Made by a program: the position numbers and the translations under genes. DNA of 64,000 nucleotides from Edaphobacter aggregans (GTDB lineage Bacteria; Acidobacteriota; Terriglobia; Terriglobales; Acidobacteriaceae): positions 110,203 to 174,202 of the forward strand of contig DZDJ01000001.1 of the NCBI GenBank assembly GCA_022736715.1, given 5' to 3'. Of the stretch, positions 3,001 through 38,514 are shown piece after piece. The notes below the pieces were generated by a model. It made no database searches and was not told where the DNA came from. It worked only from the letters and a program-made list of their open reading frames with translations. Positions within the stretch are counted from its first letter, which is position 1. Each line of letters starts with the position of its first letter.

Positions 3001-5404
3001 TGCCGCTGACGGTTGGCTGGGGCAGCGTCTGCCCGGTGAGTAGAACGGAGAGCGTGCCGTCAATATCCAGCTCGGCCGAATCCGCCGACGGTGCTTTGCT
3101 GGAGAGGTAGCCCACTTCAATCTGGCAAACCATGCCCGCCAGCAGTGAACTGGGACAGCGGTCAATCACCGTAAATGGAGAATTCTCTGGCAGGCTTACA
3201 GCCGTGTGCGCCATCGCGGCATCTGTGTAGTTCGCCAGGTACAGATAGCGTGGCAAATGAAGGCCGCCCGCAAACTGGGTGCCGAAGTCCAGCTCGGACG
3301 AAGAAGCGCTGAGCCCGGCGGCCTGCGTGTAGGCCGTCAGTAGTACGTCGCGCGCGCCAATCTTCCAGAGCGCCTGCACCGGGCCATCGTCCTGCGCATT
3401 GCTGGAGGCGCGAAAACCCAGTGTGATGGTGCAGCTTCCCCCCGGAGCCAGCACTTTGGTGCCAGTGGTGGCGCCCAGGGTACAGTCGCTGCCGCTTTCA
3501 AAAAAACTATAGTCAGTGGAAGTTGCCACGGTCTGGTCCAGCGCAGAGGCAAAGCTCTGGCTCTGCGTCGTCAGGTTGGTGACGGTGATGGTTCGCGTGA
3601 GCGGATCGCTGATGGAACTGACAATGCCGAAGTCGACTTCTCTGGGAGCAAAGGCAACCGGGTCCAGCGCCACATTGTCTGTATTTGCCGGGAGCGAGAT
3701 CACTTCCGGCTGCGCCAGGCTGCTCGATTGGATCGTCAATGTGCCCGGGCCGGTGCCGCTCAAAGCAATGCTGCATCCACTGCCAGCGGAAACGGTGCTG
3801 CCGCAGTTGGAGTTCAGCGTGTAGCCGGTAGCGCTCAGTTGTACGTTCTCCGCATCGGCGGAGCCGAGATTGCGCAGCATCAGGTTTGGCAACGTATTGG
3901 TGGAGACTGCGAGCGCAGCTCCGGGTGCGGTGGCAATCTTCTCCAGATAACCGCCGTAACCAAGGCACTGGCTGCTGTTGCCACAACTGGCAACAGTGGG
4001 CACCAGATCGCTGACGGTCGATGGCAGTGCGGTGGTGGGTGTGTTCAACAGTGGCAGGTCGTATTGCACCGGAGGGCTGGGATCGGCGGCGGAGAGAATC
4101 TGGAAATTGCCAGCCACCAGAGCGTTGCCTGTGCTGTCGACGGCAACAGCTGTTGGATTGATGCTGGCGGCGTAGTAGCTGGGGTCAGAGGTTGGCAGTC
4201 CACCGAGGCGCACAGTCTGCGTCACGTTGCCTTGCCCATCCAAATGGATGGCGTAGCCATTGCCAACATCGGTCAGCGGCGATTGCGGCCATAGAAAACT
4301 GGAAATTTGCCCGGTAGTCCAGACATTGCCGGAGCTGTCCACCGAAAGTGCTGCGGCATTGGCCGGAGCCACCACGCTGGCGTAGCTGACCGCGCTGCCA
4401 TCGGTTGCCATTTTCACAACGCCCTGATAAGCGGCAGGGGAGACCGGCGCGGCAAAGTTGGTGATCGGGAACTGTCCCGCCGCAAGGCCTCCGGCAAGGT
4501 AGAGCGAGCTGCCGGTGGCGTCCAGCGCAACGGCCGTGATACCGCTGCCGCTGACGAAGGTGGAAAACAGGAAACCGTCTCCGGAAGGCATCAGCTTGGT
4601 CAGAAATCCGGACTGCTGCACTGGCCCATTGATGGAGGGAGTATCGATCAGTTCCGGCACCAGCGCATTGAGTGTGGGATAACCCGTGGCCGTGGTGTAG
4701 CCCGCCACGTAGGCATTGTCCGCGGCGTCTACCGCAATGGCCGCCGGGGCCGTATAGCCATTCTCACCGCCAAGATAGGTTGCGTAGAGCAGAGAAGTGC
4801 CATCGAGCGAAAATTTTTCGACAAAGCCATTCTGCATGGTGCCGGATGGCGGTGTCTGCTGAATGCCATTCCCAGTGACCGGCAGGGTTGCGGCAAAGAT
4901 GCTGCCGGTGATGTAAACCGCATCGCTGGAGACGGCAATGGCCGAGGCCGTCATCCGCGACCCACCGGTGAAGGTGACGAAGACCGGTGTCAGACTGCTG
5001 GTGAATTTTGCAACGAAGGAGGTAATCCCGGCGCCAGAGTAGCTGTTGAAGTAAGCACTGCTGGTGGCCGCGAGCGTGCCCGAACCGGTGGTGCCGGTGA
5101 CATAGACATTGCCACTGGCATCGAGCGCCATGGCCAGGCCAATGTCGCCGCGGGCCCCCAGAACGGGAGATTGCGCCAGCAGCGTGGCGGCCGCAGGGTC
5201 AAACTCCAGCACGCGAATGCCGTCGCTTTGATTCAGCAGCAGGTAAAGATCGCCGCTGGCGTTGCGCTCAATTGCGTTGAACTGACCTTGTTGCGCGCTG
5301 CTGCGAAGCCCCGCAAAGACGGGCTGCTGCGCAACTGCCACGGAAAAAGTGACCAAAAGCTGCAAAAAGGCAGAAAAATACACCAACAGAAGTCGTGTCT
5401 TCAT
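1..5404 (-). CDS. Secreted beta-propeller/ASH-repeat (choice-of-anchor D) protein, 3' end outside window
   Basis: One uninterrupted minus-strand frame runs from an ATG at 5404 to the window edge with no stop, giving at least 1801 residues. I translated it by hand and checked the frame at several points. It opens with a Sec signal peptide (MKTRLLLVYF..., cleavage near AVAQQ). Residues of about 30-470 hold propeller-like repeats of the SBBP/NHL type (ASGNVYVTG, DAADNAYVAG, DSSGNVWTTG). From about 490 onward there are roughly twelve ASH/choice-of-anchor D immunoglobulin-like repeats, recognised by recurring LDFG/LNFG strands, TVSNTSS or TLTNRG strands and the LAAGASCT-type cysteine strand. Such proteins are usual in Acidobacteria and are thought to be extracellular or outer-surface structural proteins; the role here is unknown. 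No catalytic domain is visible in the part present. The gene lies 172 nt downstream of the HAD gene on the same strand. Confidence 0.88.
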   Translation of the reverse strand, partial: MKTRLLLVYFSAFLQLLVTFSVAVAQQPVFAGLRSSAQQGQFNAIERNASGDLYLLLNQSDGIRVLEFDPAAATLLAQSPVLGARGDIGLAMALDASGNVYVTGTTGSGTLAATSSAYFNSYSGAGITSFVAKFTSSLTPVFVTFTGGSRMTASAIAVSSDAVYITGSIFAATLPVTGNGIQQTPPSGTMQNGFVEKFSLDGTSLLYATYLGGENGYTAPAAIAVDAADNAYVAGYTTATGYPTLNALVPELIDTPSINGPVQQSGFLTKLMPSGDGFLFSTFVSGSGITAVALDATGSSLYLAGGLAAGQFPITNFAAPVSPAAYQGVVKMATDGSAVSYASVVAPANAAALSVDSSGNVWTTGQISSFLWPQSPLTDVGNGYAIHLDGQGNVTQTVRLGGLPTSDPSYYAASINPTAVAVDSTGNALVAGNFQILSAADPSPPVQYDLPLLNTPTTALPSTVSDLVPTVASCGNSSQCLGYGGYLEKIATAPGAALAVSTNTLPNLMLRNLGSADAENVQLSATGYTLNSNCGSTVSAGSGCSIALSGTGPGTLTIQSSSLAQPEVISLPANTDNVALDPVAFAPREVDFGIVSSISDPLTRTITVTNLTTQSQSFASALDQTVATSTDYSFFESGSDCTLGATTGTKVLAPGGSCTITLGFRASSNAQDDGPVQALWKIGARDVLLTAYTQAAGLSASSSELDFGTQFAGGLHLPRYLYLANYTDAAMAHTAVSLPENSPFTVIDRCPSSLLAGMVCQIEVGYLSSKAPSADSAELDIDGTLSVLLTGQTLPQPTVSGSTPNPNLSVSPTQIVFASPVTVTAISSESQSVQIQNTGTAAFTLSLAIAGDFTLTSTTCGSSLASGGSCTASLDFAPSQAGLRQGLLSVTASGGSAAYVDLSGTGTGIVPVNNGALSFGLVPVGEPAVQWIKLNQPLTSLTATTTAPYGVVLVEDQGYGHGQPPVTAFQSSVSGSCNNCWLGIQFQPASTGAQTGLVQLSTVAGGNPYLLAVTGTGIPLTTTYLTPASTDFGPIPLRSSSQNYSFTLINGSTQAATVSTPALTGDFSLVQNTCPATLAAGASCTLQVAFAPTVLGPRTGTISIPTSIATATASLTGYGSTDPGMAFNPSGLVFNNVADTSAVQQSITVSNTSSATVQIGSLTSSNAQYTATTACATLAPNAICTIQVRYTPSSSLVSATLLVPVTSNGNTTTYSLPLSTTYTAEDAGLSITPTAMDYGPVPTATAGGTRAFTISNLTGKSIVLSLNLPRQFALTSAPCSGLAPHASCSFTMQFLPLTNGDITGSILALGAPTDNSGAINGLAYLLGYGTGSGSLAITGNFQPTGALDFGLVTSGQSQAQTLTLTNRGQAPLHIRRITSEPPFFTTTTCGAALAANATCTVTVSYAPVYQYTSGTAQPSPQSMSGSLVVESDAITSPEAVTLTGTAAAVAAGAPDNSNPLASFSVSQSSLSFSSVSIGNNTALQQVTLSNTGTSTLHISSLQSTPDFTLDNGNCLNAVAPGASCTFSVSFTPQSAGQHISAVEISSDSSTALEFVSLVGTGTPAALQLLPSSLNFGTVNLGSNKALAEQITNNSSGAITFPGITATGDYSVSSGCPTSLAAGSVCTVQITFQPSQAGTRSGTLSIPSSATTLPLTVPMTGIGAQGQLQIGTTVLNFNSVLLGQSSTQTIQLQNTGTAPVLDIQAATVGDFASADSCAGTLMSGATCSFNVTFTPTAAGSRDGTLTITSSDPRSPTTILLSGTGISQTAQLQVGTSILNFSSTIIGQSTTQTLTLKNIGNAT

Positions 5405-24032: not shown

Positions 24033-25385
24033 TCAGGTCTGGCGGCGGGAAACTTTCAGCAGAAGATAACTGCCGACGATAGCGGCTGTGGTGGAGGCGA
24101 GCAGGATGCTGATGCGGGCGATGGTGTCCAGCTCGCTGTAGCCAAAGGCCAGCGAGGCGATGAAGAGCGACATGGTAAAGCCAATGCCGGCAAGCCATCC
24201 TGCGCCGTGGATATGCGCCCAGCAGACGCCATCGGGGAGTGAAGCCAGCCGGAGCTTGACGGCGATCCAGGAGAAGAGCAGGATGCCGAGAGGCTTGCCG
24301 ATCACCAGTCCGAAATAAATGCCAACCGGCAGGGCGTGCAGCAGGTATGGCAGATGCAGGCCCGACAACGTCACTCCGGCATTGGTGAGCGCAAAGAGCG
24401 GCATGATGCAGAAGCTGACCCACGGTTGCAGATGGTGTTCCATCCGGTCGAGCGGGGGCTCTGCCAACGTGGCAACGGCCTGAATACGCTCCAGCGTGTT
24501 GTGCACGTCGGAGTGGGAAATGCTGTTGGGGTCTTCCTGCAGGCCGGTTCTCAGTTCGCTGAGCTTTTCAACGGTGCCAGAGATGAAGTCCCGCGGTTTT
24601 ACCCGGCTGTTGGAGGGGACCACCATTGCGAGCAGAACTCCGGCCAGAGTGGCGTGAATGCCGGAGCGAAGCATGGCCAGCCACAGAATGACTCCGATGA
24701 CCAGATAAAAGCGCAGATGGTTGATTCCGGCCAGGTTCCCAATCAGCGCAGCCACCAGACAGCCGAATGCAAGCAGAAGCATCCCGTAGTGGATGGTGTC
24801 ACTGTAAAAGACCGCAATGACCAGCACCGCTGCGATGTCGTCGGCAATAGCCAGCGCAGTGAGAAAGATCTTCAATCCCAGAGGAATGCGGCTGCCCAGC
24901 AGGGCAAGAATGCCGAGGGCAAAGGCGATGTCTGTGGCCATGGGAACGCCCCAGCCATTGGCTGTGGGAGTTCCGTGGTTGATGGCCGCATAGATGAGAG
25001 CCGGGAAGAGGACACCGCCGAGTGCAGCCAGAATGGGCAGAGCGGCCTTGCGCACGGAGGCCAGTTCGCCGGTGAGCACCTCACGCTTGATCTCCAGCCC
25101 GACAAGCAGGAAGAAGATGGCCATCAGGCCATCGTTGATCCAGAAGTGTAGCGTGTGCCGCAGCGTATATGGCCCAAGACCGAAGCTGATTTCAAAGTGC
25201 AGCAGAGAGTTGTAAAAATCGCGGAATGGCGAGTTGGCCCAGAGCAGTGCGGCAACGGTGCAGGCCAGCAGCACGATGCCACCGGCAGCCTCAATGCGGG
25301 CAAAGCGGACGAAGGGTCTCACAATGTGGTCAATGGGTTTGGTGGTCGCCAGCGGAATGGTGAGTTGTTCCGGCATCTGGGTCAT
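24033..25385 (-). CDS. nhaA: Na+/H+ antiporter NhaA
   Basis: A 450-residue integral membrane antiporter that expels Na+ in exchange for H+. The key residues of the NhaA family are present: the ATDIAFALGIL segment (E. coli Asp133) and AIADDIAAVLVIA with the paired Asp that binds the ion (E. coli Asp163/164). The hydrophilic loop VVPSNSRVKPRDFI is longer than in E. coli, which fits the common longer NhaA form. Confidence 0.94.
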   Translation of the reverse strand: MTQMPEQLTIPLATTKPIDHIVRPFVRFARIEAAGGIVLLACTVAALLWANSPFRDFYNSLLHFEISFGLGPYTLRHTLHFWINDGLMAIFFLLVGLEIKREVLTGELASVRKAALPILAALGGVLFPALIYAAINHGTPTANGWGVPMATDIAFALGILALLGSRIPLGLKIFLTALAIADDIAAVLVIAVFYSDTIHYGMLLLAFGCLVAALIGNLAGINHLRFYLVIGVILWLAMLRSGIHATLAGVLLAMVVPSNSRVKPRDFISGTVEKLSELRTGLQEDPNSISHSDVHNTLERIQAVATLAEPPLDRMEHHLQPWVSFCIMPLFALTNAGVTLSGLHLPYLLHALPVGIYFGLVIGKPLGILLFSWIAVKLRLASLPDGVCWAHIHGAGWLAGIGFTMSLFIASLAFGYSELDTIARISILLASTTAAIVGSYLLLKVSRRQT

Positions 25386-25629
25386 CTTGAAATACGAACA
25401 CTTTGATTCTATTCATAGAGTGTCTTCATGTCAGGAGGAAACGGCCCCAGTTTTGAGCACAAGCAACAGATGGACGGGACAAGTCCCGGTGCGCGGGAGT
25501 GGGAGCATGGCGGGACAGCCTTCAGAAGGAACTGATGCAGTGTAAACCGGGAGCGAAGCGGCTGCTGATGGGCCGGGTGTTCAAGCTGGCGGAGCAGGAA
25601 AGCGGCGATGATGGCCATGCTGTAGTGAT

Positions 25630-26301
25630 TTATCTATGCTGCAGCATGGTCAACACCAGCGTCTGTAGGCCATTCCAGGCAATCTGAACTCCAATGCAGA
25701 GCAGAATGAAGGCAATCACGCGCTGAATGCCGTGCGCTGTTTGCGGCGAGATTTTTTTGGTGATTGCCGGGGCATAGGCATAGCAGAGATAGACAAGCAG
25801 GCTGAGCGCAATGATTGCCAGCAGCGCGCCAAGATGCGCCAGCAGGCTCTCTGTAAGCAGCTTGCGCGAAGCATGGGCGCTGAGCGTCAGCATAACGACG
25901 ATGGTGCCGGGGCCTGCAGTGATCGGGAACGTATAGGGGTAAAAGGTACGCTGCTGCAAATTGCTAAGTGAAGCTTCTGGAGGAATGTCTTTGCGGGCAG
26001 CATCTGCGCTGGCATCCTTTTCATTCAGCAGTGACCAGCCCATTGCCGCCAGCACAAAGCCGCCTGCAACTTGCAAAATAGGTAAAGAAATGCCGAAAAA
26101 GGATAATAGTGCTGCTCCCAGCAACTCGATAGCCAGCAGAAAAAGAATAGTGTTGAAGGCAATTTTTCTGGCCAGTGTTTTGTAGGTAGCGGATGGGGCG
26201 ATTCCAACCAGGCCCAGGAAAACCAGAGATGAACCAAGCGGGTTGATCAAAGGCAGCAGGGCGCTGAAGACCAGAACGAAATATTTTCCAAGAAGCAACA
26301 T
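25630..26301 (-). CDS. MarC-family integral membrane protein
   Basis: A 223-residue protein with six predicted membrane helices and the MarC/UPF0056 pattern: ALLPLINPLGSSLVFLGL at the start, then AGGFVLAAMGWSLL and PYTFPITAGPGTIVVMLTLS in the middle. The function of the family is not established, and older links to multidrug resistance were not upheld. It is divergent from the SAM-riboswitch operon. Confidence 0.88.
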   Translation of the reverse strand: MLLLGKYFVLVFSALLPLINPLGSSLVFLGLVGIAPSATYKTLARKIAFNTILFLLAIELLGAALLSFFGISLPILQVAGGFVLAAMGWSLLNEKDASADAARKDIPPEASLSNLQQRTFYPYTFPITAGPGTIVVMLTLSAHASRKLLTESLLAHLGALLAIIALSLLVYLCYAYAPAITKKISPQTAHGIQRVIAFILLCIGVQIAWNGLQTLVLTMLQHR

Positions 26302-26427
26302 GTTGATTTCGAAGTGATCCCTCCTCAGTGTAAATCAGGTAACAGAAAATTGGATGCAGATTGATGCTGAATGCAGCCAGCAGGAATCTGTAAATACAAC
26401 TCCCTAAACCATGGGCCGAGAGGTTGC

Positions 26428-26456
26428 TTGATTTGCACAGCCCTGTGTGCTAACTT
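26428..26456 (+). promoter_or_regulatory. Probable sigma-70 promoter of the SAM-riboswitch operon
   Basis: TTGATT and TAACTT are 17 nt apart, about 30 nt upstream of the riboswitch aptamer, which would start transcription near 26463. Confidence 0.4.
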
Positions 26457-26486
26457 CTAACTATTCAAGTTTGCCCGGTGGGCGAG

Positions 26487-26604
26487 CCTGAATTTCATGA
26501 AGAGTGGTTGAGGGACGAGCCCTGTGACGCCACGACAACCGGCCTGAGCAATTCAGGCAACCGGTGTCAACTCTCTCCTGGTAACGGGGAACATGAGATT
26601 CGGG
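26487..26604 (+). promoter_or_regulatory. SAM-I (S-box) riboswitch
   Basis: The S-box aptamer pattern is present in order: P1 (26487-26499 with 26592-26604, about 13 bp with wobbles), AGAGTGGTTGAGGGA, GAGCCC, TGACGCC, GACAACC, a P3 hairpin GCCTGA/TCAGGC, then CCGGTGTCAACTCTC in place of the usual GGTGCCAAnTCC. Binding of S-adenosylmethionine is expected to lower expression. Downstream a 9-bp hairpin with one mismatch (26606-26629) is followed by a modest T-rich run, so it may be a weak terminator; sequestration of the start is also possible. The aptamer call is stronger than the platform call. Confidence 0.85.
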
Positions 26605-26745
26605 GTGCATACTTCTTCTAAAGTAAGCATCTCGCTATTTTCAGATTGTCCTGTGTGGCTGCCGGCCTGATCGGTCGTGCATGTCACTCTACCTGTAGAG
26701 ATACCGTCACAAGCCAGTACTCTGACCGCTCGGAAACGGGTAGCA

Positions 26746-28068
26746 ATGACAACGTCTGTATCCGGAACCGAAGTTAGCTCGAAGCAGCAGGATGGCTGTA
26801 TTTACGAGTTGCGTTGTGTGGAGTGTGGCCGGAGTTTCGGCAATCAACCGCTTTCCATCTGCGATGAATGCTTTGCGCCGCTGGAAGTTTTCCATGATCT
26901 TGAGGCTGTGCGCGGCGTGTTTACCCGCGAAGCCATTGCCAGGGGGCCAAACAACATCTGGCGCTACAAGGCGCTGCTGCCGGTGCCGGAGGGCCATCAA
27001 CCAGACCTGCCGGTGGGCTTTACCCCGCTGATGGAGGCTCCGCGCTTGGCCAGGCGGATTGGCGCAGGTAAGCTGTGGGTGAAGAATGATGCGGTTTGCC
27101 TGCCGACGCTGAGCTTCAAGGACCGCGTGGTTTCTGTGGCGCTGGCGAATGCAAAGTTTTTTGGATTTGAAACGGTCGGCGCGTCTTCGACCGGTAATCT
27201 GGCCAACTCGGTAGCGGCGCAGGCGGCCCGCCTGGGGTTGAAGGCCTGCATTCTGGTGCCGGCAGATCTGGAGCCGGCCAAGATTTTGAATACGCAGGTG
27301 TATGGCGCGCGGCTGGTGCGTATTGATGGCAATTATGACCATGTGAACCGGTTGTGCTCGCAGATTGCCGACCGCTTCCACTGGGGCTTTGTGAACGTGA
27401 ATCTGCGTCCGTACTACGCGGAAGGCTCCAAGACGATGGGCTATGAGATTGCCGAACAACTGGGCTGGCGTTTGCCGGACAACGTTGTGGTGCCGATGGC
27501 AGGCGGCTCGCTGATTCGCAAGATCAAGAAGGCCTTTGACGAACTGATTGAGTTGGGGCTGGTGGAAGCCAAACCGGTGCGCTACTTTGGTGCACAGGCG
27601 ACAGGCTGCTCGCCGATTTCGACGGCGGTGAAGAACAACACGGAGCAGATTGAGCCGCAGCGGCCGAATACGATTGCGCGTTCGCTGGCGATTGGCAATC
27701 CGGCGGATGGGCCGTATGCTTCGCGGGTGATCCGGCAGAGCGGTGGCTGGGCCGAGGATGTGAGCGACATTGAAGTGGTGTCGGGCATTCAGGAACTGGC
27801 CGAGTCGGAAGGCATCTTTACGGAAACGGCTGGCGGGGTAACGACTGCTGTAGCTGCGAAGCTGTATGCGCATGGCCGCATCCGTCCGGATGAGGAAACC
27901 GTGATCTGCATTACGGGCAATGGCCTGAAGACGACGGATGCCCTACAGGACAGGTATGCGCAGGAGCGTGCGGTGCGTCCGCGGCTGGCGGATTTTGAAG
28001 AATATCTGAGGGAACTGGAACTGCCGGCAGAGGCCGCGTTCGTTGGAGGGGGAGTTCATGTCGGTTAG
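26746..28068 (+). CDS. Threonine-synthase-like PLP enzyme with zinc ribbon, under SAM control
   Basis: A fold-type II PLP enzyme of about 440 residues. It has an N-terminal rubredoxin-like ribbon (Cys24, 27, 39, 42), the PLP lysine Lys125 in SFKDR, the Gly-rich PLP-phosphate loop (ASSTGNLANS) and a typical ThrC tail ending in GNGLKTTD. The closest named family is threonine synthase (O-phosphohomoserine to threonine), but the motif reads PTLSFKDRVV instead of the usual PTGSFKDRG. The SAM riboswitch upstream and the overlapping sulfur-carrier gene argue for a sulfur amino acid role, possibly thiocarboxylate-dependent homocysteine or cysteine synthesis. ATG 26746 is chosen because it begins just before the ribbon; GTG 26677 is an in-frame alternative. 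Confidence 0.88.
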   Translation: MTTSVSGTEVSSKQQDGCIYELRCVECGRSFGNQPLSICDECFAPLEVFHDLEAVRGVFTREAIARGPNNIWRYKALLPVPEGHQPDLPVGFTPLMEAPRLARRIGAGKLWVKNDAVCLPTLSFKDRVVSVALANAKFFGFETVGASSTGNLANSVAAQAARLGLKACILVPADLEPAKILNTQVYGARLVRIDGNYDHVNRLCSQIADRFHWGFVNVNLRPYYAEGSKTMGYEIAEQLGWRLPDNVVVPMAGGSLIRKIKKAFDELIELGLVEAKPVRYFGAQATGCSPISTAVKNNTEQIEPQRPNTIARSLAIGNPADGPYASRVIRQSGGWAEDVSDIEVVSGIQELAESEGIFTETAGGVTTAVAAKLYAHGRIRPDEETVICITGNGLKTTDALQDRYAQERAVRPRLADFEEYLRELELPAEAAFVGGGVHVG

Positions 28069-28342
28069 AGTTTTGTTGCCAACAGCGTTTACCAGGCACA
28101 CGGATGGAAAAAAGGAGCTGCAATCGTCTGCAATAGATTTGCCGGGACTGGTGGCAGACATTGAAGCTACGTTTCCTGCACTCGGTGCGCACATCAAGGA
28201 CGAGAACGGCAAGCTGCGCCGCTTTATCAACGTGTATGTGAATGAAGAGGACATCCGCTTCCTGGGCAATGATGCCTACAAGTTTCAGGATGGCGATGAA
28301 GTGATGCTGATTCCGTCGATCGCTGGCGGCTGTGGATGCTAA
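28058..28342 (+). CDS. MoaD/ThiS-family sulfur-carrier protein with GGCGC tail
   Basis: A 94-residue ubiquitin-like protein overlapping the ThrC-like gene by 11 nt. The beta-grasp pattern is clear: VRVLLPTAF at the start, FINVYVNEEDIRF in the middle, DGDEVMLIPSIAGG near the end. The start ATG 28058 has a strong GGAGGGGG ribosome site; the longer TTG-initiated frame is not needed. Carriers of this family end in Gly-Gly, which is adenylated and thiocarboxylated; here Gly90-Gly91 is followed by Cys-Gly-Cys, so trimming by a JAMM-type protease may be required, as for QbsE. It probably feeds sulfur to the enzyme encoded just upstream. No E1-like or JAMM gene is nearby. Confidence 0.88.
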   Translation: MSVRVLLPTAFTRHTDGKKELQSSAIDLPGLVADIEATFPALGAHIKDENGKLRRFINVYVNEEDIRFLGNDAYKFQDGDEVMLIPSIAGGCGC

Positions 28343-28365
28343 GGTAAAACAGGTGTTCGTTGAAG

Positions 28366-28393
28366 AAAAGCGCGAGCTTCGGCTCGCGCTTTT
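28366..28393. terminator. Strong UUCG terminator closing the SAM-controlled operon
   Basis: A perfect 12-bp stem (AAAAGCGCGAGC with GCTCGCGCTTTT) with a TTCG tetraloop, 23 nt after the carrier stop. The A/T ends make it able to act in both directions. It overlaps a possible upstream start of the flavoprotein, which argues for the later start at 28411. Confidence 0.85.
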
Positions 28394-28410
28394 CTGTTGC
28401 GTGGGGAAGC

Positions 28411-29586
28411 GTGAATAAAGACAGGCAGATATGGGATGTGATTGTGCTGGGCGCAGGTGCGGCCGGGCTGATGTGTGCGATCGAGGCCGGCAAGCGTGGC
28501 AGACGGGCGCTGGTGCTGGACCACGCGGAGCGCATTGGGAAAAAGATCTTGATTTCGGGCGGCGGACGGTGCAATTTCACCAACATCCATTGCAAGGCTG
28601 AGAATTTTCTTTCTGCGAACCCGCACTTTGCCAAGTCGGCGCTGGCGCGTTTTCGCCCGGCGGACATGGTGGCTCTGGTGGAGAAGCACGGTATCCGTTA
28701 TCACGAAAAAACACTGGGGCAGCTTTTCTGCGATCGCTCGGCGCATGACATTGTGAATCTGCTGGAGCGGGAGTGCGCAGAGGCTGGCGTGCGTATTCTG
28801 ACGCATACGCGCATGGATGCTATAGAGCATAGCGACTCATTTGTTGTTCGCAGCGGCGAACTGGAGTTTGTGGCTCCGGCGCTGGTAGTGGCGACGGGCG
28901 GCCTGTCGATTCCGAAGATGGGAGCCACGGATTTTGGCTATCGGCTGGCGGCGCAGTTTGGCATTGCGGTGCGGCCCTGCCGTCCGGGGTTGGTGCCGCT
29001 GGTTCTCAGCAGGGCTGAGCAGGAACTGTGGTGCGATCTTGCAGGCGTGTCGGCTGAGGTTGTGGCATCGATGGGCAAACGGCGCTTCCGCGAGAAGATG
29101 CTGATCACGCATCGCGGGCTTAGCGGCCCTGCGATTCTGCAGATTTCCTCGTACTGGGAGCAGGGAAGCAGCATTGCGCTGGATCTGGCGCCGGGTCAGG
29201 ATGTGACGGAGCCGTTGCGGCGACAGATTTCCGGGCGGGAGGAAACAATGTATCGCATGGCGTTGCGGCAAGCGTTGTCGCAGCGGCTGTCGGACCGCTG
29301 GCTGGAGGTGTTTTCGCCGGAAGACTGGAGCAACCGCGCACTGGCAAAGCTGGAGGAGAATCTGCATCGCTGGGAGGTGTTTCCCGCTGGCACAGAGGGA
29401 CATGAAAAGGCCGAGGTGACCGTGGGCGGCGTGGACACGAACGAGCTTTCTGCCCGGACGATGGAGAGCCGGAAGGTGAAGGGCCTGTTTTTTGTTGGTG
29501 AAGTGGTGGACGTTACCGGGCACCTGGGCGGGTTCAATTTTCAGTGGGCGTGGGCCTCTGGATTCAGCGCAGGGCAAGCGGTTTAG
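28411..29586 (+). CDS. FAD-dependent oxidoreductase, YhiN/HI0933 family
   Basis: A 391-residue flavoprotein with an N-terminal dinucleotide fold (VIVLGAGAAGLMCAIEAG), the ISGGGRCNFTN motif and a C-terminal FVGEVVDVTGHLGGFNFQWAWASG segment that binds FAD, all typical of the YhiN/HI0933 (BaiN-like) family. The reaction is not established; reduction of unsaturated compounds has been shown for BaiN. GTG 28411 is preferred because the upstream terminator would interrupt a longer N terminus, and GTGGGGAAGC supplies a ribosome site. Its own promoter should lie near the terminator. Confidence 0.9.
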   Translation: MNKDRQIWDVIVLGAGAAGLMCAIEAGKRGRRALVLDHAERIGKKILISGGGRCNFTNIHCKAENFLSANPHFAKSALARFRPADMVALVEKHGIRYHEKTLGQLFCDRSAHDIVNLLERECAEAGVRILTHTRMDAIEHSDSFVVRSGELEFVAPALVVATGGLSIPKMGATDFGYRLAAQFGIAVRPCRPGLVPLVLSRAEQELWCDLAGVSAEVVASMGKRRFREKMLITHRGLSGPAILQISSYWEQGSSIALDLAPGQDVTEPLRRQISGREETMYRMALRQALSQRLSDRWLEVFSPEDWSNRALAKLEENLHRWEVFPAGTEGHEKAEVTVGGVDTNELSARTMESRKVKGLFFVGEVVDVTGHLGGFNFQWAWASGFSAGQAV

Positions 29587-29646
29587 GGGCGCAAAGTTGA
29601 GCTATGGCTTTCGCATGTAGGGCCAATGTGGTTGCAAAATCAGGTG

Positions 29647-31032
29647 TTAGCGGGCGATCCCTGCAGGCGGAAGTGCCTGGTAAGGCTTGAATCCGGCGCG
29701 CTGCATTCCGAGGCGTGCCTCCGGATTTTGCATGAATGTCTTCCACACAAAGCCGGTGCGCAGGTTTTCGGCCATCAGCAGAGTGATGCCGGTATCAATG
29801 CCAACCACATCCTTGTCATACCAGTTCTTCAACGGGTTGAATGCGTTGACGAATCCATAGCGGCTCCAGGCATTGGGGTAATGCTTGCGGATGTTGCGCA
29901 GAACGCGCAGAGTGGGCTGCGGCATAAATGCGAGCGAGCCGCCGGTGGCACTGGGCACGACGGTTCCATCAATCGGTCCCATGGCAGGAGGCCCGCCCCA
30001 GATGACATAGCCCTGATCGGAATCAGATGCGGTGATGCCCCAGAGATCCTCGCTGTAGTCCGGGAATTTTTTGGCCAGTGCGATGCAGAAGTGGCGGTGA
30101 GCTTCTGTAGCGACGATGGAATTTTCAAAGTAGTCGGCGTAGGCGTCCCGTTTGTTGCGGAAATCAAACCATGCCTGTGAGTACTGGTGAACAAATAACG
30201 GCGCAAAGGAGCCGACGTAGCGCAACCCGTCGTACTCAAAGATGGTGCGCTTCCACGCATTCCAGGCAGCGGCTTTGAGCGGGTGCGTAGCAGAGCCCAG
30301 GCCGAGCAGGTACATCATCATCAATTCACTGTAGTAGTCCCAGTGATACGGGAGAAAGCCCAGTTCCGGCGTCCATCCATGGGGCAGCAGGGATGTATCT
30401 TCCGAGAGCCAGGTCCAATCGACACGATTGAAAATTGCATGTGCCAGACTGGTGATTTCGGTGTGCCTGAAATATTCGCGGCAGGTCAGGATGCCGCACA
30501 GCAACATGGCCGTATCGACCGAAGAGACCTCCGACTCCCATACGCGCTCGCCAGTGTTCATGTTGGCGAAGTGATAAAAGAAACCGCGATGAGTGGGCAG
30601 TTTCTTCCACAGGAAGCGCAAAGCGGACAGAACACGTTGTTCGGCTTCTCGCCGGGAGATGTAGTTGCGGCTTTGTGCAATGCAAATGGCGGTAAGTCCA
30701 AAACCAGTTGCAGCGATGCTGGCCACGGTGCGGCTGTCATTTACTTCAACATTGCCGCGATCTTTGACGAGGCCGGTTTGCGGATTGACCTGCTCCCAGA
30801 AGTAGAGAAAGTTGGCGCGTTCAATCTCATCCAAAAAAAATTCGTCGTCCTGACTGAGCGGCGCCTGCGAGGCCTGCAACAATGCGGGAACGCTGGTAGG
30901 GAGCATGCTTGCCGAAGCGGAAACTGGGAGTAGATGGGAGGTAGCAGTAAAGCCTGCGAATCCGGCCAGCAACCCAAGCATTTCACGGCGAGAGTATGGC
31001 CCACTATCCCTGACCTGACGATCAACACGCAT
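29647..31032 (-). CDS. Glucoamylase-family (PF10091-type) Tat-exported protein
   Basis: A 461-residue exported protein with a twin-arginine signal (YSRREMLGLLAGFAG) near residue 20. The mature part shows the glucoamylase/GH144-related pattern: ERANFLYFWEQVNPQTGLVKDR near the start, WESEVSSVDTAML in the middle, PLFVHQYSQAWFDFR, then WGITASDSDQGY and VVPSATGGSLAFMP toward the end. Known GH144 members hydrolyse beta-1,2-glucan, which fits the nearby GT84-type gene. ATG 31032 is chosen because longer frames add a stretch with no domain and the Tat signal then sits properly at the N terminus. Confidence 0.85.
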   Translation of the reverse strand: MRVDRQVRDSGPYSRREMLGLLAGFAGFTATSHLLPVSASASMLPTSVPALLQASQAPLSQDDEFFLDEIERANFLYFWEQVNPQTGLVKDRGNVEVNDSRTVASIAATGFGLTAICIAQSRNYISRREAEQRVLSALRFLWKKLPTHRGFFYHFANMNTGERVWESEVSSVDTAMLLCGILTCREYFRHTEITSLAHAIFNRVDWTWLSEDTSLLPHGWTPELGFLPYHWDYYSELMMMYLLGLGSATHPLKAAAWNAWKRTIFEYDGLRYVGSFAPLFVHQYSQAWFDFRNKRDAYADYFENSIVATEAHRHFCIALAKKFPDYSEDLWGITASDSDQGYVIWGGPPAMGPIDGTVVPSATGGSLAFMPQPTLRVLRNIRKHYPNAWSRYGFVNAFNPLKNWYDKDVVGIDTGITLLMAENLRTGFVWKTFMQNPEARLGMQRAGFKPYQALPPAGIAR

Positions 31033-31154
31033 TGCAAGTGATTCTAAACCAACAGGGGAGGGATGTCCTCGTATACAATTCCCTTTGCCTGGGCCTGAGG
31101 ACGCAAGAACGGCATGGCCAGGTTTGCGCAACCAGGAGTGCGAGGGCAGGTGCT

Positions 31155-32195
31155 TTGGAAATCGGCTTGAAGCGACGGAAAAAACTTGTAGCGTGGGTGG
31201 CTGCGTTGGTTTTATCGGCCATCGTTTTTGTCGTCTTTCTGCGCATTCGTTTTGATGACACACATCCGCTGTTGCTGGAGGGCGCAGTTGTCCGCAAAGA
31301 TGCCGATCCCCATAAAGAGCTTCCGCTGGAGGGAGCAAAAATTACGGCAAAGGTTGGCCAGACAGTTATCAGCACCACGTCCGATCAATCTGGCTATTTC
31401 CGGCTTGCAATTCCCGGAAAAGCGGGATGGACGCAAAAGCCGACGTTGTCTATTGTGCATGGCGGGTATGTGCCGTTGTTGTTGCCGATCAGCAGGCCCG
31501 CGCAATTGTATGTTGCCAAAATGGAGGAAGAGCGGCCCGCGGTAACAGAGCCAAACCAGCAAATAACGGAAATCTCGGCAATCCGAGCCAGATATACCGT
31601 CGACACGGTTACGAATGTCAATATTGGCAGCGTGGTGAAGACGTTTCAGGTGGTGAACCAGGGAAACGTCCCTTGCACGCGGCAGATGATGTGTTCTCCA
31701 GATAAGAAGTGGAAAGCCAGTGAAGCATCTCTTACCCTCGAAGCAGGGCCGGACAACCATTACCGTCACGCAAGGGCGTCCTGCATTGCTGGCCCGTGTC
31801 CTTTTACATTGACGGAGCTAAAGATTGATGATGCGGCCGCTGACAAAATTACGGTGAAAGCGTTGAATTGGTCTGATACGACAACGATGTTGGTGGAGGC
31901 AGAGGTGTTCCATTCGATGGTGGGCCAGAACATTACGCGCTCCTATCCGGTCATTTTCGGCCGGACGTTGAACTTCACACTTCCTGCAAGCGTTGAGGGG
32001 ATCAGTATTGAAGCAACTGTGGATGAAACTCCGATTGTGTTTCCACTTGGGCCCGATCTGCAACTGAGCTGGGCAGTTTGCACGGAGCGCACAGACACAG
32101 AAAAAACACAGGTGTACCGCTGCGAGCTGAAGCCCGGATATGAGTTCAGGAAGGAATCGCCTCTTCAAAAAACTGCGCCTGACTCCGCTCCATAG
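31155..32195 (+). CDS. Hypothetical membrane-anchored protein with carboxypeptidase-regulatory-like domain
   Basis: About 346 residues from a TTG at 31155 preceded by AGGGCAGG. A basic start (LKRRKK) and one membrane helix (about 10-27) lead to an Ig-like/carboxypeptidase regulatory-type segment (GAKITAKVGQTVISTTSDQSGYF) and a further region with no family I know (from about residue 110). It is probably anchored in the inner membrane and faces the periplasm. It is divergent from the glucoamylase-family gene and ends 8 nt from the convergent synthase stop. It has no visible catalytic motif. Confidence 0.65.
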   Translation: MEIGLKRRKKLVAWVAALVLSAIVFVVFLRIRFDDTHPLLLEGAVVRKDADPHKELPLEGAKITAKVGQTVISTTSDQSGYFRLAIPGKAGWTQKPTLSIVHGGYVPLLLPISRPAQLYVAKMEEERPAVTEPNQQITEISAIRARYTVDTVTNVNIGSVVKTFQVVNQGNVPCTRQMMCSPDKKWKASEASLTLEAGPDNHYRHARASCIAGPCPFTLTELKIDDAAADKITVKALNWSDTTTMLVEAEVFHSMVGQNITRSYPVIFGRTLNFTLPASVEGISIEATVDETPIVFPLGPDLQLSWAVCTERTDTEKTQVYRCELKPGYEFRKESPLQKTAPDSAP

Positions 32196-32202
32196 AGTGC
32201 TT

Positions 32203-35200
32203 TTACCCGGACCATTTTTTTGCTGCAAAGAGTACAGGCCGCTCGTGCAATAGAAGTTCGCAGGCCTGCACGCGCGCGTCCTGATGGAAGTACTTCTGCA
32301 GGATGTTGTCCTGTAGAAGATTGGTGATGGAGAGCAGGCTCATTCCTTGATGGTGTGCCATCCAGGAGCGGACGACGACGCATTCAGCAGGACGTTTGCC
32401 AGGCACCTCTTCCTGATAATCGATCGCTTCATAAAAACCATACCGCCCAAACCATCCTTGTTTTTCCATGCTCGCCAGATTTTGCAGGGCCTGTTCTGTT
32501 GCGACCGGCAATGCCAGAATGCTTGCATACGGTGCAACCACCAGGCGTTCCATGTCGGGTGCGCGTATGGCCAGCTCGGGTATGCCAAACGCGTGATATT
32601 GATACAGACCATCTATATCGGTTGCGCTATAAGCCGACTCCGAAATGCCCCAGGGGACACGGCGCTTTTTCGCGAAGGCCTGCTGAGCAAGCACGGCTCC
32701 CATCATCGCGCGTTGCAATAAAGTGTTCTGGTGAGAATGCATCCACAGGTGCGGCATGAGGTATTCAAACATGGTGCCGGTCCAGGAGATGAGCACGGGA
32801 CGGCCCTTGCTCATCACATGCTCGCGCCCCAGCAAAACCCAGGTTTCCTGCGCAATGTCACCGTTTGCGATGGCCAGGAAGCTGGCAATTCTTGATTCGG
32901 AGCCAAGCATGTCGTAACAGGAAGCATTGAGTGTGTTCGAGTCCACATCAAACCCAATAGACAACAGCTTGCGGCGGGGGTCCAGCAGAAAGTCGAACTG
33001 CATTTCACTCAGCAAAGATTCCGCCTGCTCGATGATCTTTTGTATGTCAGCAATAAGACGAGCTGTATTCTCGCGTGCAGTCGACAGTTGCCGCTGCACA
33101 GACTCTACCTGTGTGTCGTTTAGAGAACGCCCGGCACGGAGCACGATCTTGGCGGTTCCGATGGCTGCAATGAGCGCATCAAGATAAGCAGGCATGTCCT
33201 GCAGCGGAATGTCTCCCTGTGCGACGACATTGCTGTTGGCAAACCATTCGCGCATTGGCTGGAAGGTGTTGGCGAGCCAGGGTTCATAGTCCTGAATGAG
33301 GCCATGTATATGCTTTGAGCGGGAGCTGAGTTCGTTCACAAACCATAGAGCGTCCTGTGAGTTGGTGGCCTTTATCTCTGGTACGGCACTTTCAAAAAGC
33401 TCAGGAAGAAGAAATTTATTCCAGCAGGACTGCTGCATCTCCAGAACGCGATGCAGATCCTGCTCCTGCAATACCCGGTGACGAACGAGCGCACGCAGGA
33501 AGTCAACGTAGCCGTCATACAGGCCACAGTGCAGCAGGGGACTCCGTAACCTGGCAAGACAGCCTTGTTTCAACGTGATGAGGGAAGCGGCCAGGTTGCC
33601 GCTGTCCACCGTCGAGATAAAGTGAGGGGCGAGCGGCTCCTGAGAGCGTGTGTCGTACCAGTTTAGTAAGTGCCCTCTGGCACGCCGTAGTTGTAGAACG
33701 GAATGCAGTGTTTTCAAAGTGAGATCTGCAAATTCAGGCAATGTGAGATACCCAAGCTCGCAGGCGGCCTGCCTGGCGTTCAGCAGAAAGCCAAGGTTGG
33801 TTGGCGAAAGGCGGGAGGCGATGTGGCAGGGTTCGAGTTGAACATTGTCCGGAATAAGCCACCGTTCTTCCGCACTGCTGAATTCTGCAAAGTAACGCCA
33901 GGTGTGCAGGGCAATATTGCGCAGAAAAGCTGCTTCTTTCTCCGAAATATTTTTCTTTGCGGCGCGTGGAGGCAGGTTGAGCCAGAGAGAGAGCGGCTTG
34001 CTGCATGCCCAAAGAAACAGAACAGGAACTGCAATAGTGAGTGCACGGTGATGCAGCAGCACAACCAGTGACCCGATAGCAGCAGCAACTACCGGCATCC
34101 AGTCCAGCACAACATCAAGGAAGGTCCGCTTGCGGACGCCCATTTCAACCTGTGCTGCGCTTTCCCATTCCAGCAAGCGTTGACGTGACATTGTCCGGCG
34201 ATAGAAAGAGCGAAGGATCGCATCCAGAGACAGCATTGCCTGATGTGCGAGAAAGGTAAGTACCAAGAGCGATGAGACAAGTGATGTGCCAAGAGTAGTA
34301 ACGCTTTCACTAACAGCTCCAGGACGATCGGCAAACAGGCCGCGAGCGAATCCAACCACAAATTGAGACAACGATGGCAAAAATAGAAGTAGAAAGACGA
34401 CCAACGTCCAATAAAGAGGCGACCCCGGAAGTACAAGCCAGCCAAGGAGTAGAAAAAGCAAAGTTGCAGGTTCTACCAGGCTGCGGCGCAGGTTGTCCAA
34501 AATCTTCCATCCAGATATGAGCCGGATCGGATTGGCGATGATCCTGCCGGACTCATCGCGCACACGCGGGGACAACCATTCAATAATTTGCCAGTCACCA
34601 CGCAGCCAGCGATGCTTGCGCCGGTTGTAAGCACTGTAGTGAGAAGGGTAATCATCGATCACTTCAATGTCGCTTGTTAGTCCAACTCTGGCATAAGCGC
34701 CCTCAATCAAGTCGTGACTGAGAAGTGCGTTGCGGGGGAAGCGGCGATCAAGGACTCTATGAAAAGTCCCAACTTCATATATGCCTTTTCCTGTAAAAAT
34801 TCCTTCTGCATACAGGTCCTGATAGACATCAGAAACGGCGCGCGAGTAGATGTCAAAACCTGTTTCTCCGGAGTAGATGCTTGCAAGCCGGGAGCGGGAT
34901 GCGCTGAGAACGCTGATGCCGACACGCGGTTGCAGAATGCCGTAGCCTATGGTCACGAGGTTCCGGTGCGGATCAATGATGGCCTGATTCAGCGGGTGCG
35001 CGATGGTCCCAATCAGACGGTGGGCCACTCCGCGTGGCAGTTCTGTGTCGGAATCAAGTGTGATGACATAGCGGACTTTTCTAAGCAAAGAGAGGTCCAC
35101 AATTTTGATGGGAAAACTGTCGTGCTCGCCAAGAACCAGCTTGTTGAAGTCGAGCAGCTTGCCGCGTTTGCGTTCCCAGCCCATCCAGACACCTTCGCGC

Positions 35201-36642
35201 GGATTGAAGATGCGGTGCCGATGGAAAAGTGCAAATGGTGCGCGGCCAGTTGTGGAATATTTCTGATTGAGTTCGCGTATCAGCCGCTCGGCAAGCTCAA
35301 TCAGAGGAGAGTCTTCGCGCGGTCTCACCTCGGAATCCGGGAGGTCTGTGAGCAGTGCAAAGTAAAGATTCCGGTTTTGGTTGCCGATATAGCGTATCTC
35401 AAGATCGGCAGCCAAGTGGTGTACCTGCGATTCACTCAACAGCAATGTGGGCACCACAACCATGGTGGTGCAGTCCTCCGGAATTGCTCCGGAAAAATCG
35501 AGCTTTGGCAGTTTGCCAGGAGGCAGAAATGTGGTGATGAGGAAGTTCATCACTTCCACGGCAGCCTGACTGCAAGGAAAAAGTAAAACAAGAAAAGTAC
35601 AGAGGCCGGCAAGGAACGTATCAAAGTGCTGGATCATTGGTACAAGAATGCCCAGAGTGAATAGTCCTGTAAGAACCTCGATACCGCCTAAATAGAATTC
35701 GTCGGGATGCCTGCGCAGGAATTTTTGTAATTGCGTTACGATCGGCCAACGCACCTGGACTCGTTGCTCGAGTATTGGCAAACCCTCAGCGATGAGATAG
35801 TATCCAACGTGCGATTTACGAAGCAGAAGACGTGGATTTGGCTCATGTTCCTTTGCAGCAGCCCTGGCCAGTCCAATTGCATGTTGCGCTGTTTCGATTT
35901 CACTGCAATCAGAGTTGTGCGAGAGCTTTGCGATGACCTGCCGGTACAGTGACCGGCCATCAAAATCCATGCCGGCATAAGCGCCCGCGGGGTCCTGCAA
36001 CAGAATGGTGTGGCATACCATCAACTCTTCGTTCAACTCTTTAAAGGGGGCCTGAGTTACTGCGCGCAGCGCTGCAACGTTAGTGGCAGTTGTATCGGCC
36101 TTAGGCCCGGACGCAGCCGGGTCATTGGCAACCGCTTCCATCAGAACAAACTGCAACGCTAATGGCAGTGAAAGCAGTTCCTCCATCTGCAACGGCGCTA
36201 CAGCCTGGAATGCTTTAAGGTATGTGCCATAGAACTGATCGGAAAACCGAAATTCTGTTGCCGCTAACAAGTCGGACGCAATTGCAACAATGCGTGGAAC
36301 GACAGAACCATCTTCCAGATGCGCATACGGCAACAGCAATTCTGCGAATTGTTTTGCCGCTGCATGCAGTTCCAGGAGCGTTGCACGCAGTAGGTGGGTG
36401 TTTTCATAGACGCAGCGCATGCGCTGCGTCATCACGGCATGTTCCTGATGGGCCTTTGCTGCTTCCTGCAGGGAATTTTCGATGGTGGATTTTATGGTAG
36501 AAGTTAGTTGCTTCCAATAAGGAGAACCATTTTTCCCAGCGGCCCACAGCAGCTTTTGTGCGCACTGCGTTGCGCGCGCTGCCAGATCTGTGTCCTCTGG
36601 CAGTGAACCTGTTTCTTCAGTTCTTTTTGTTGTCTTGTCCAT
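32203..36642 (-). CDS. Cyclic beta-1,2-glucan synthase-like protein, GT84 and glucoamylase-like domains, no GH94
   Basis: A 1479-residue membrane glycosyltransferase. The N-terminal part (1-300) is the Cgs-like helical region, with membrane helices near 310-370. The GT84 domain (about 370-740) has Asp530-Ser-Asp532 (LDSDTELPRG) and HRWLRGDWQ around residue 680, followed by membrane helices (about 710-870). A glucoamylase-like domain (about 1210-1450) shows SWTGTMFEYLMPH, PWGISESAY, YQYHAFGIPEL and GRYGFYEAIDY. Brucella/Agrobacterium Cgs (NdvB/ChvB) are about 2800 residues with a C-terminal GH94 phosphorylase region that sets ring size; here the protein stops right after MAHHQGMSLLSI and ELLLHERP, where that region should begin. 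The product is probably a beta-1,2-glucan, but linear or differently sized glucans are possible. It lies 45 nt after the ABC exporter gene in an operon. Confidence 0.88.
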   Translation of the reverse strand: MDKTTKRTEETGSLPEDTDLAARATQCAQKLLWAAGKNGSPYWKQLTSTIKSTIENSLQEAAKAHQEHAVMTQRMRCVYENTHLLRATLLELHAAAKQFAELLLPYAHLEDGSVVPRIVAIASDLLAATEFRFSDQFYGTYLKAFQAVAPLQMEELLSLPLALQFVLMEAVANDPAASGPKADTTATNVAALRAVTQAPFKELNEELMVCHTILLQDPAGAYAGMDFDGRSLYRQVIAKLSHNSDCSEIETAQHAIGLARAAAKEHEPNPRLLLRKSHVGYYLIAEGLPILEQRVQVRWPIVTQLQKFLRRHPDEFYLGGIEVLTGLFTLGILVPMIQHFDTFLAGLCTFLVLLFPCSQAAVEVMNFLITTFLPPGKLPKLDFSGAIPEDCTTMVVVPTLLLSESQVHHLAADLEIRYIGNQNRNLYFALLTDLPDSEVRPREDSPLIELAERLIRELNQKYSTTGRAPFALFHRHRIFNPREGVWMGWERKRGKLLDFNKLVLGEHDSFPIKIVDLSLLRKVRYVITLDSDTELPRGVAHRLIGTIAHPLNQAIIDPHRNLVTIGYGILQPRVGISVLSASRSRLASIYSGETGFDIYSRAVSDVYQDLYAEGIFTGKGIYEVGTFHRVLDRRFPRNALLSHDLIEGAYARVGLTSDIEVIDDYPSHYSAYNRRKHRWLRGDWQIIEWLSPRVRDESGRIIANPIRLISGWKILDNLRRSLVEPATLLFLLLGWLVLPGSPLYWTLVVFLLLFLPSLSQFVVGFARGLFADRPGAVSESVTTLGTSLVSSLLVLTFLAHQAMLSLDAILRSFYRRTMSRQRLLEWESAAQVEMGVRKRTFLDVVLDWMPVVAAAIGSLVVLLHHRALTIAVPVLFLWACSKPLSLWLNLPPRAAKKNISEKEAAFLRNIALHTWRYFAEFSSAEERWLIPDNVQLEPCHIASRLSPTNLGFLLNARQAACELGYLTLPEFADLTLKTLHSVLQLRRARGHLLNWYDTRSQEPLAPHFISTVDSGNLAASLITLKQGCLARLRSPLLHCGLYDGYVDFLRALVRHRVLQEQDLHRVLEMQQSCWNKFLLPELFESAVPEIKATNSQDALWFVNELSSRSKHIHGLIQDYEPWLANTFQPMREWFANSNVVAQGDIPLQDMPAYLDALIAAIGTAKIVLRAGRSLNDTQVESVQRQLSTARENTARLIADIQKIIEQAESLLSEMQFDFLLDPRRKLLSIGFDVDSNTLNASCYDMLGSESRIASFLAIANGDIAQETWVLLGREHVMSKGRPVLISWTGTMFEYLMPHLWMHSHQNTLLQRAMMGAVLAQQAFAKKRRVPWGISESAYSATDIDGLYQYHAFGIPELAIRAPDMERLVVAPYASILALPVATEQALQNLASMEKQGWFGRYGFYEAIDYQEEVPGKRPAECVVVRSWMAHHQGMSLLSITNLLQDNILQKYFHQDARVQACELLLHERPVLFAAKKWSG

Positions 36643-36687
36643 GTGCAGTCCATTCTCAAGAAAACCTTCATTTGCAGCAGCGTGGGC

Positions 36688-38514
36688 TCAGCGATAACTC
36701 GATGCCTGTAACTCAAACATTTCCGCGTAACGGCCTTGACGTGACATCAATGCGTCGTGATCGCCTTCTTCGGAGATGCGGCCGCCACTGAGCACGATAA
36801 TGCGGTCTGCGGTGCGTACGGTCGAAAAGCGGTGCGAAATGAACAGCGCCATTTTCCCGGCTGTTAGTTCAGCGAAGCTTTCAAAGACTTCGAACTCACT
36901 CCTTGCGTCGAGGGCCGCAGTTGGCTCATCCAGAATCAGCAGTTGCGCATCCCTCAGGTAGGCCCTTGCAAGCGCGATTTTCTGCCATTCTCCGCCAGAC
37001 AGGTCGACGCCGCCATCAAACCGGCGGCCAAGCATCTGGTCGTATCCCAGGGCCAGTTTGGCAATTACCTGATCAGCATGGCTCTTGGCGGCAGCTAGTT
37101 GCAGCAGATCAGCCCTCTGTATGTCCTGTATTTGTCCAACACCAATGTTCTCAGCCGCCGTCATTTCGTAACGCATGAAGTCCTGAAAGATGACGCTGCT
37201 TTGCCGGTGCAGGTCTTCAAGATCATATTCACGCAGGTCTGTGCCATCGAGCAGTATCTGGCCTTCAACGGGGTCATAAAGACGGGTCATCAGCTTAACG
37301 ATGGTCGTTTTTCCTTCGCCATTTTCCCCAATTAAGGCAACACGCTCTCCTGGTCGCAGAGTGAAATTGAGCTGGTTCAGGATGAGGCGAGAGCTGCCCG
37401 GATAGCGAAACGATACATTGCAAAATTCAAATCCCTGGACAATCGGCCGCGGAGCAGGAAGTGCACCGGGCTTCGACTGGATCGCTGGGCGCATTTCAAA
37501 AAATTCCAGTAGATCAGTAAGGAACAACGCCTGGTCAGCAACACCGGAAAGCGTGGAGAAAATCTGCTGGATGTTGCTGCTCGCCTGCAGGATGGCTCCG
37601 GAAAGAAAGTACAGCGTTCCGATGGAGAGTGCGCCCGCCACAGTTCGCCAAATTACGTAGACATACGCTGCGTAGTAACCGATCGAACTAATGATGGAAA
37701 GCAGTGTGCCAGCGATCAAACGCTGGCGGGAGAGAGCAACATTCTCGTGATGTATCCCGTCTGAGAGTACCGTAAAGCGATCAGTAAAGAACTTGCTGAG
37801 GCCAAAGAGTTTTAATTCTTTGGCAGCTTCGCGGCTGCCACCTATTAGTCGCAGATAATCCAACTGGCGGCGGACAGGCGTCTGCCGGAAGTTTTTCGTA
37901 TATCCAAGAAAGGCGAAGTGGGTCTCTCCGAGAAATGCAGGAACCACACCGGCAACCAGCACCAACAGCAACCAGGGCGAGAAATAGATGATGGACGCGG
38001 AAAGTGAAATCGTGGTGATGACCTGTTGGATGAGCCGTCCGATGGACTGTATCATGCCCAGGCGGTCTGTTGCCTGAACGCGTGCGCGTTCCAGCCTGTC
38101 GTAGTAGACCGGGTCCTCATAAGCGATGAGGTCAAGCTCTGCGGCATGGCGCATGACTTCAATGCTGACATAGCGGGTGTAATTGTCCGCGAGCAGAGAA
38201 TCGAGATAATCAATAATGCGGGCAATCACATTTGTGAGTACGGCCAGACCAAATTCCAGCGCGACGATCCACCAGAATTTAGCCGGAACAGGCTGATGGT
38301 GAGTGATAGCGGCCACAATACCGTCGATGATCAATTTACTGACGGCAAGTAGAGCAATGGGCAAAACTGAGGCGAAAACCCGGAAAAGAACGCCGAGAGA
38401 AACCACGACTCCGCCGGAGTGCCACACGATTTTGAGCACCGGAGGAACATTACGAAGCGCTTTCATGCGCTGCTGCCAACCAGATCGAAAACCCTGCTGT
38501 TCCTGAACCGTCAT
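36688..38514 (-). CDS. ABC exporter (permease fused to ATPase), probable glucan exporter
   Basis: A 608-residue half-transporter. An N-terminal membrane domain with about six helices (25-330) is followed by an ATPase domain with Walker A (GENGEGKTT), Q-loop (VIFQDF), signature LSGGEWQ, Walker B LLILDEP and the switch His in FISHRF. Because the glucan synthase starts 45 nt downstream on the same strand, it may export the glucan, as NdvA/ChvA does with NdvB/ChvB. This is inference from neighbours; the sequence alone shows only an exporter-type ABC protein. Confidence 0.9.
   Translation of the reverse strand: MTVQEQQGFRSGWQQRMKALRNVPPVLKIVWHSGGVVVSLGVLFRVFASVLPIALLAVSKLIIDGIVAAITHHQPVPAKFWWIVALEFGLAVLTNVIARIIDYLDSLLADNYTRYVSIEVMRHAAELDLIAYEDPVYYDRLERARVQATDRLGMIQSIGRLIQQVITTISLSASIIYFSPWLLLVLVAGVVPAFLGETHFAFLGYTKNFRQTPVRRQLDYLRLIGGSREAAKELKLFGLSKFFTDRFTVLSDGIHHENVALSRQRLIAGTLLSIISSIGYYAAYVYVIWRTVAGALSIGTLYFLSGAILQASSNIQQIFSTLSGVADQALFLTDLLEFFEMRPAIQSKPGALPAPRPIVQGFEFCNVSFRYPGSSRLILNQLNFTLRPGERVALIGENGEGKTTIVKLMTRLYDPVEGQILLDGTDLREYDLEDLHRQSSVIFQDFMRYEMTAAENIGVGQIQDIQRADLLQLAAAKSHADQVIAKLALGYDQMLGRRFDGGVDLSGGEWQKIALARAYLRDAQLLILDEPTAALDARSEFEVFESFAELTAGKMALFISHRFSTVRTADRIIVLSGGRISEEGDHDALMSRQGRYAEMFELQASSYR

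Follow-up and report, generated by a model that had tools for sequence, protein, structure and literature searches.

The DNA studied here is a stretch of 64,000 nucleotides (the window) from Edaphobacter aggregans, assembly GCA_022736715.1, contig DZDJ01000001.1, positions 110,203-174,202 of the forward strand. Within it lies a metM-metO operon, which is real and widespread, and is preceded by a SAM riboswitch. The features of the locus are as follows.

26492-26599, + strand: SAM-I (S-box) riboswitch aptamer (Rfam RF00162, 69.1 bits)
26600-26745, + strand: leader from the aptamer to the metM start, presumed expression platform (leader fold against shuffles)
26746-28068, + strand: metM-like gene for a PLP enzyme of the ThrC family, proposed to make homocysteine from O-phosphohomoserine (TIGR00260, PALP, clade, residues)
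28058-28342, + strand: metO-like gene for a ThiS/MoaD/CysO-type sulfur carrier (PF02597; best PDB match CysO 3dwg)
28364-28395, + strand: 14-bp UUCG hairpin ending the operon, likely terminator (fold energy)

The original prediction, whose start at 26428 sits about 64 nt 5' of the aptamer, described an S-box aptamer heading a ThrC-family PLP gene, an overlapping MoaD/ThiS-type gene and a strong terminator after the pair. The aptamer and the TIGR00260 gene were indeed recovered in this order, and the reading frames of metM and metO share 11 nt. The hairpin that follows has a perfect 14-bp stem and a UUCG loop (-28.9 kcal/mol, z -3.4) and is likely to be the terminator of the operon. A simple terminator scan finds no intrinsic-terminator-like site in 26300-28500, the riboswitch leader included; it misses this hairpin because the U-tract sits within the stem. 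The flanks (24033-26301 and 28411-38514) carry genes that are unrelated by name, including a Na+/H+ antiporter, MarC, an HI0933-like flavoprotein, two glycoamylase-domain proteins and one ABC protein.

The aptamer matches RF00162 along the full length of the model (1-108) with an E-value of 4.6e-14, its 69.1 bits standing against a gathering score of 44.4 bits. It is the only SAM-I match in the 3.56 Mb genome. The whole riboswitch leader was also observed to fold more stably than its shuffles (z -3.7). From the class of the aptamer, plentiful SAM would be expected to lower the expression of metM and metO.

The MetM reading frame encodes 440 aa and scores 274 bits with the thrC model TIGR00260 (cut-off 167), along with a PALP match of 221 bits, which is also over its cut-off. 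Its closest solved structures are threonine synthases, and the fold is taken as settled because of this similarity to solved ThrC. CysK/CysM models were not found among its best 25 profile matches. With its score above the thrC family cut-off, MetM could be read as a second threonine synthase or a threonine-degrading enzyme that is a chance neighbour of a SAM riboswitch and a carrier gene. In line with this, both threonine synthase and deaminase activity have been reported for a cyanobacterial homolog that shares 51.6% identity with MetM: it converts O-phosphohomoserine to threonine and also deaminates threonine, whereas close to methionine no more than an unassigned peak was seen (PMC12172450).

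The tree and the active-site residues speak differently. In the tree, 32 MetM sequences form one clade, separate from 21 ThrC (support 100/99). The Nonomuraea homolog, 54% identical to the MetM studied here, falls inside this clade, and one ThrC-labelled paralog sits on a very long branch. MetM retains the PLP lysine motif of ThrC; unlike ThrC, it carries STGNL (108 of 108 sequences) where 20 of the 21 ThrC have STGNT. Similarly, the motif NSxNPxRxEGQK, present in 20/21 ThrC, occurs in none of the 108 MetM, most of which have NxNxRPYYAEGSK at the same site. The positions aligned with S155, N157 and R160 of Thermus ThrC, which we take to contact the substrate phosphate, are N, R and Y in every MetM sequence. 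Such replacements suggest a rebuilt phosphate pocket, in which the addition of water would be disfavoured and that of sulfur allowed.

Moreover, the genome has a threonine synthase besides MetM; the original prediction had regarded the opposite case, MetM as the sole one with a full conventional methionine route elsewhere, as damaging to its proposal. Two proteins of the host exceed the thrC cut-off, namely MetM and an ordinary ThrC on contig C187, which is directly followed by thrB and clusters with same-family relatives in the tree. With this ordinary pair at hand, the ThrC active-site residues replaced in 108/108 MetM, and the carrier, the SAM-I switch and the absence of MetX all conserved, a threonine-related role of MetM is very improbable.

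The partner of MetM is a protein of 94 aa that matches Pfam ThiS (PF02597) over the cut-off. Its nearest solved structures are the CysO of M. tuberculosis (3dwg, E 2e-19) and a ThiS/MoaD family protein (4n6e). The C-terminus of this MetO reads IAGG followed by CGC; elsewhere, MetO terminates in Gly-Gly in 21 loci, and extra residues beyond it are more common. In other carriers, residues past the Gly-Gly are trimmed by JAMM proteases, and by analogy a protease of this kind would trim the MetO tail. As a JAMM protease is present in 59 of the 61 genomes compared, its presence alone is not diagnostic.

Of 110 loci examined, nearly all have a metO-type carrier gene adjoining metM, that of Nonomuraea included. 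On a deltaproteobacterial contig (L079, 3062-8982), the row of genes reads PALP, metM, NIL-domain gene, a second PALP gene that is cysK/cysM-like, JAMM, carrier, ORF and ATP sulfurylase. Close to metM in a planctomycete are a PAPS reductase and a fusion of carrier, E1 and rhodanese. Both neighbourhoods thus tie MetM to carrier-borne sulfur.

Since CysO is the nearest PDB relative of MetO, and some metM genes adjoin cysK/cysM-like genes, a cysteine synthase of the CysM/CysO type also has to be considered, in which carrier sulfur would pass onto phosphoserine or another serine derivative. The CysM/CysO/Mec system of Mycobacterium tuberculosis employs a PLP enzyme, a thiocarboxylated carrier and a phosphorylated amino acid (PMC12910592). 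However, the host has such a set of genes on another contig, C283.

C283:9627-10598: cysM
C283:10600-11034: JAMM protease
C283:11081-11356: CysO-like carrier, ending in IAGGR
C283:11602-12864: E1-rhodanese of the MoeZ type

This cluster (C283:9627-12864) resembles the mycobacterial cysteine route, and the host therefore has its own CysM/CysO-type route to cysteine as well as parts for the charging and trimming of carriers, besides a cysK-like gene. The production of cysteine by MetM, which the original prediction had kept as an alternative, is less likely because of this separate cluster. MetM itself is ThrC-like and not CysM-like, and the SAM-I switch together with the exclusion of MetX (described below) points to homocysteine as the product. 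A CysM/CysO-type role is, on the whole, exceedingly improbable.

The enzymes that acylate homoserine are missing from the host, for whose genome a completeness of 100% and a contamination of 5.9% are reported. A profile search found no MetX in it (best match 20 bits) and MetA was not found, which bears out the absence of metX and metA that the original prediction had singled out for checking. Seven PF01053 matches are present, of which only two are strong, both scoring highest as cystathionine gamma-lyases; no MetY-type sulfhydrylase was found among the seven. At C89:1-5019, a cysK-like gene lies beside a cystathionine gamma-lyase/synthase-like gene, a pair that probably serves reverse transsulfuration. 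Could the latter enzyme (406 aa, PF01053), with its cysK-like neighbour, be the main maker of homocysteine, using O-phosphohomoserine in the manner of plant cystathionine gamma-synthase and leaving a minor part to MetM? It is best as a cystathionine gamma-lyase/homocysteine desulfhydrase, below every cut-off shown, and these scores fit reverse transsulfuration. Its gene is also not behind the riboswitch, so that such a division of roles is highly improbable. MetH is present in the genome, seemingly over two adjacent reading frames of about 413 and 997 aa (C311:31233-34918).

In Streptomyces, metO reportedly lies downstream of metM and its thiocarboxylated product is said to be the sulfur donor; to our knowledge, Streptomyces is without the canonical homocysteine genes. 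The conversion of O-phospho-L-homoserine to homocysteine by Streptomyces MetM was described by Hasebe et al. in 2024 (doi 10.1128/aem.01247-24), together with cyanobacterial homologs, as relayed by a citing paper (PMC12172450). As given in that citing paper, metO of S. albulus encodes a sulfur carrier, and metM of this species has a SAM riboswitch upstream; it also reports the SAM riboswitch to be absent in Microcystis. Thus, the statement of the original prediction that no description of the exact unit was known has to give way, for metM/metO with a SAM riboswitch had, by the account in PMC12172450, been described for S. albulus in 2024. For the acidobacterial riboswitch-thrC-moaD unit, the literature search found no description.

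The operon studied here belongs to the MetM/MetO kind already described in Streptomyces. Going by the citing paper, the two have in common a ThrC-family enzyme, an adjacent carrier and a SAM riboswitch upstream, the tie to S. albulus running through this paper and through the Nonomuraea homolog as a proxy. They differ in the acidobacterial host and in the CGC after the Gly-Gly of the carrier. O-phosphohomoserine, the substrate relayed for S. albulus MetM, would by analogy also be that of the acidobacterial enzyme. The host itself shows the expected pattern, in that MetX and MetA are missing and separate thrC and thrB genes are kept. Another relative is the HcyS/MetY pair of Wolinella succinogenes, where the sulfur of a protein carrier likewise ends in homocysteine and where HcyS, like MetO, has residues beyond the Gly-Gly. 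The Wolinella route, however, relies on an enzyme of the MetY type (PF01053) acting on acylated homoserine, whereas neither a MetY-type enzyme nor MetX was found in the host.

Taken with the published Streptomyces enzyme, from which we infer the reaction, it is very probable that the SAM-regulated metM-metO operon makes homocysteine from O-phosphohomoserine with carrier sulfur, and the original prediction of this chemistry is very probably right. ThrB would supply the O-phosphohomoserine. MetO, probably cut back to its Gly-Gly, would be adenylated and thiocarboxylated, probably by an E1/rhodanese of the MoeZ type, and would serve as the sulfur donor. MetM would then eliminate the phosphate from O-phosphohomoserine on PLP, and addition of the carrier sulfur at C-gamma would give homocysteine, which MetH would methylate to methionine. 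The riboswitch would turn the pathway down at high levels of SAM.

The distribution of these genes was followed in the host and 60 relatives (61 genomes). Strong MetX was defined as a match over 330 bits, the scores leaving a gap between 332 and 153 bits. Some MetM genomes have weak matches of about 130-150 bits, which were rejected as MetX because of this clear gap and because most of the strong matches have PF01053 genes as neighbours. In tests of co-occurrence that ignore shared ancestry, MetM (39 genomes) and strong MetX (13 genomes) never occur together (Fisher p 8e-8), and the same is seen within the family alone (MetM 19, strong MetX 12; p 1e-5). SAM-I was found in 29/61 genomes, every one of them with MetM (p 3e-9 in the same kind of test); 28 of these matches are directly upstream of metM and one is at a contig end. 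The search gave no SAM-I match in 10 of the 39 MetM genomes. MetA accompanies MetM in seven relatives, and both routes can therefore coexist. Neither MetM nor strong MetX was seen in G001, G007, G010, G020, G023, G025, G046, G050 and G056, some of which are incomplete.

Family models label metM genes as threonine synthase, and bacteria without MetX and MetA can therefore pass for methionine auxotrophs. The riboswitch, the carrier and the active-site motif together identify metM-metO and close this apparent gap in methionine synthesis. The near-fixed residue changes, in turn, offer a direct test of a threonine synthase turning into a homocysteine synthase. What is added here to the Streptomyces precedent is the spread of the pair, its mutual exclusion with MetX, a motif that is diagnostic of the enzyme, and the tails of the carrier; the results also add evidence for MetM/MetO as a main route to homocysteine in Acidobacteriota.

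The link between riboswitch and gene, on whose conservation the original prediction had staked its case, holds well beyond the host: SAM-I lies directly 5' of metM in 63 of 76 testable loci. These come from Acidobacteriota, Planctomycetota (including Kuenenia), Verrucomicrobiota and Kiritimatiellota, and the locus of the actinomycete Nonomuraea also has SAM-I upstream. At the metM loci of Omnitrophota, an upstream SAM-I was looked for and is absent. A wider reading has about even odds: much of the Acidobacteriota would make its homocysteine mainly through MetM/MetO, which would occur with SAM-I also in Planctomycetota, Verrucomicrobiota and Kiritimatiellota; the carrier tail after the Gly-Gly would be removable, cut by a JAMM protease common to the cysteine pathway; and the phosphate pocket of ThrC would have been rebuilt for sulfur at C-gamma. 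As a separate observation, a planctomycete contig (L083) has a SAM-I riboswitch 3' of metM, at 3450-3569, which therefore probably heads another gene.
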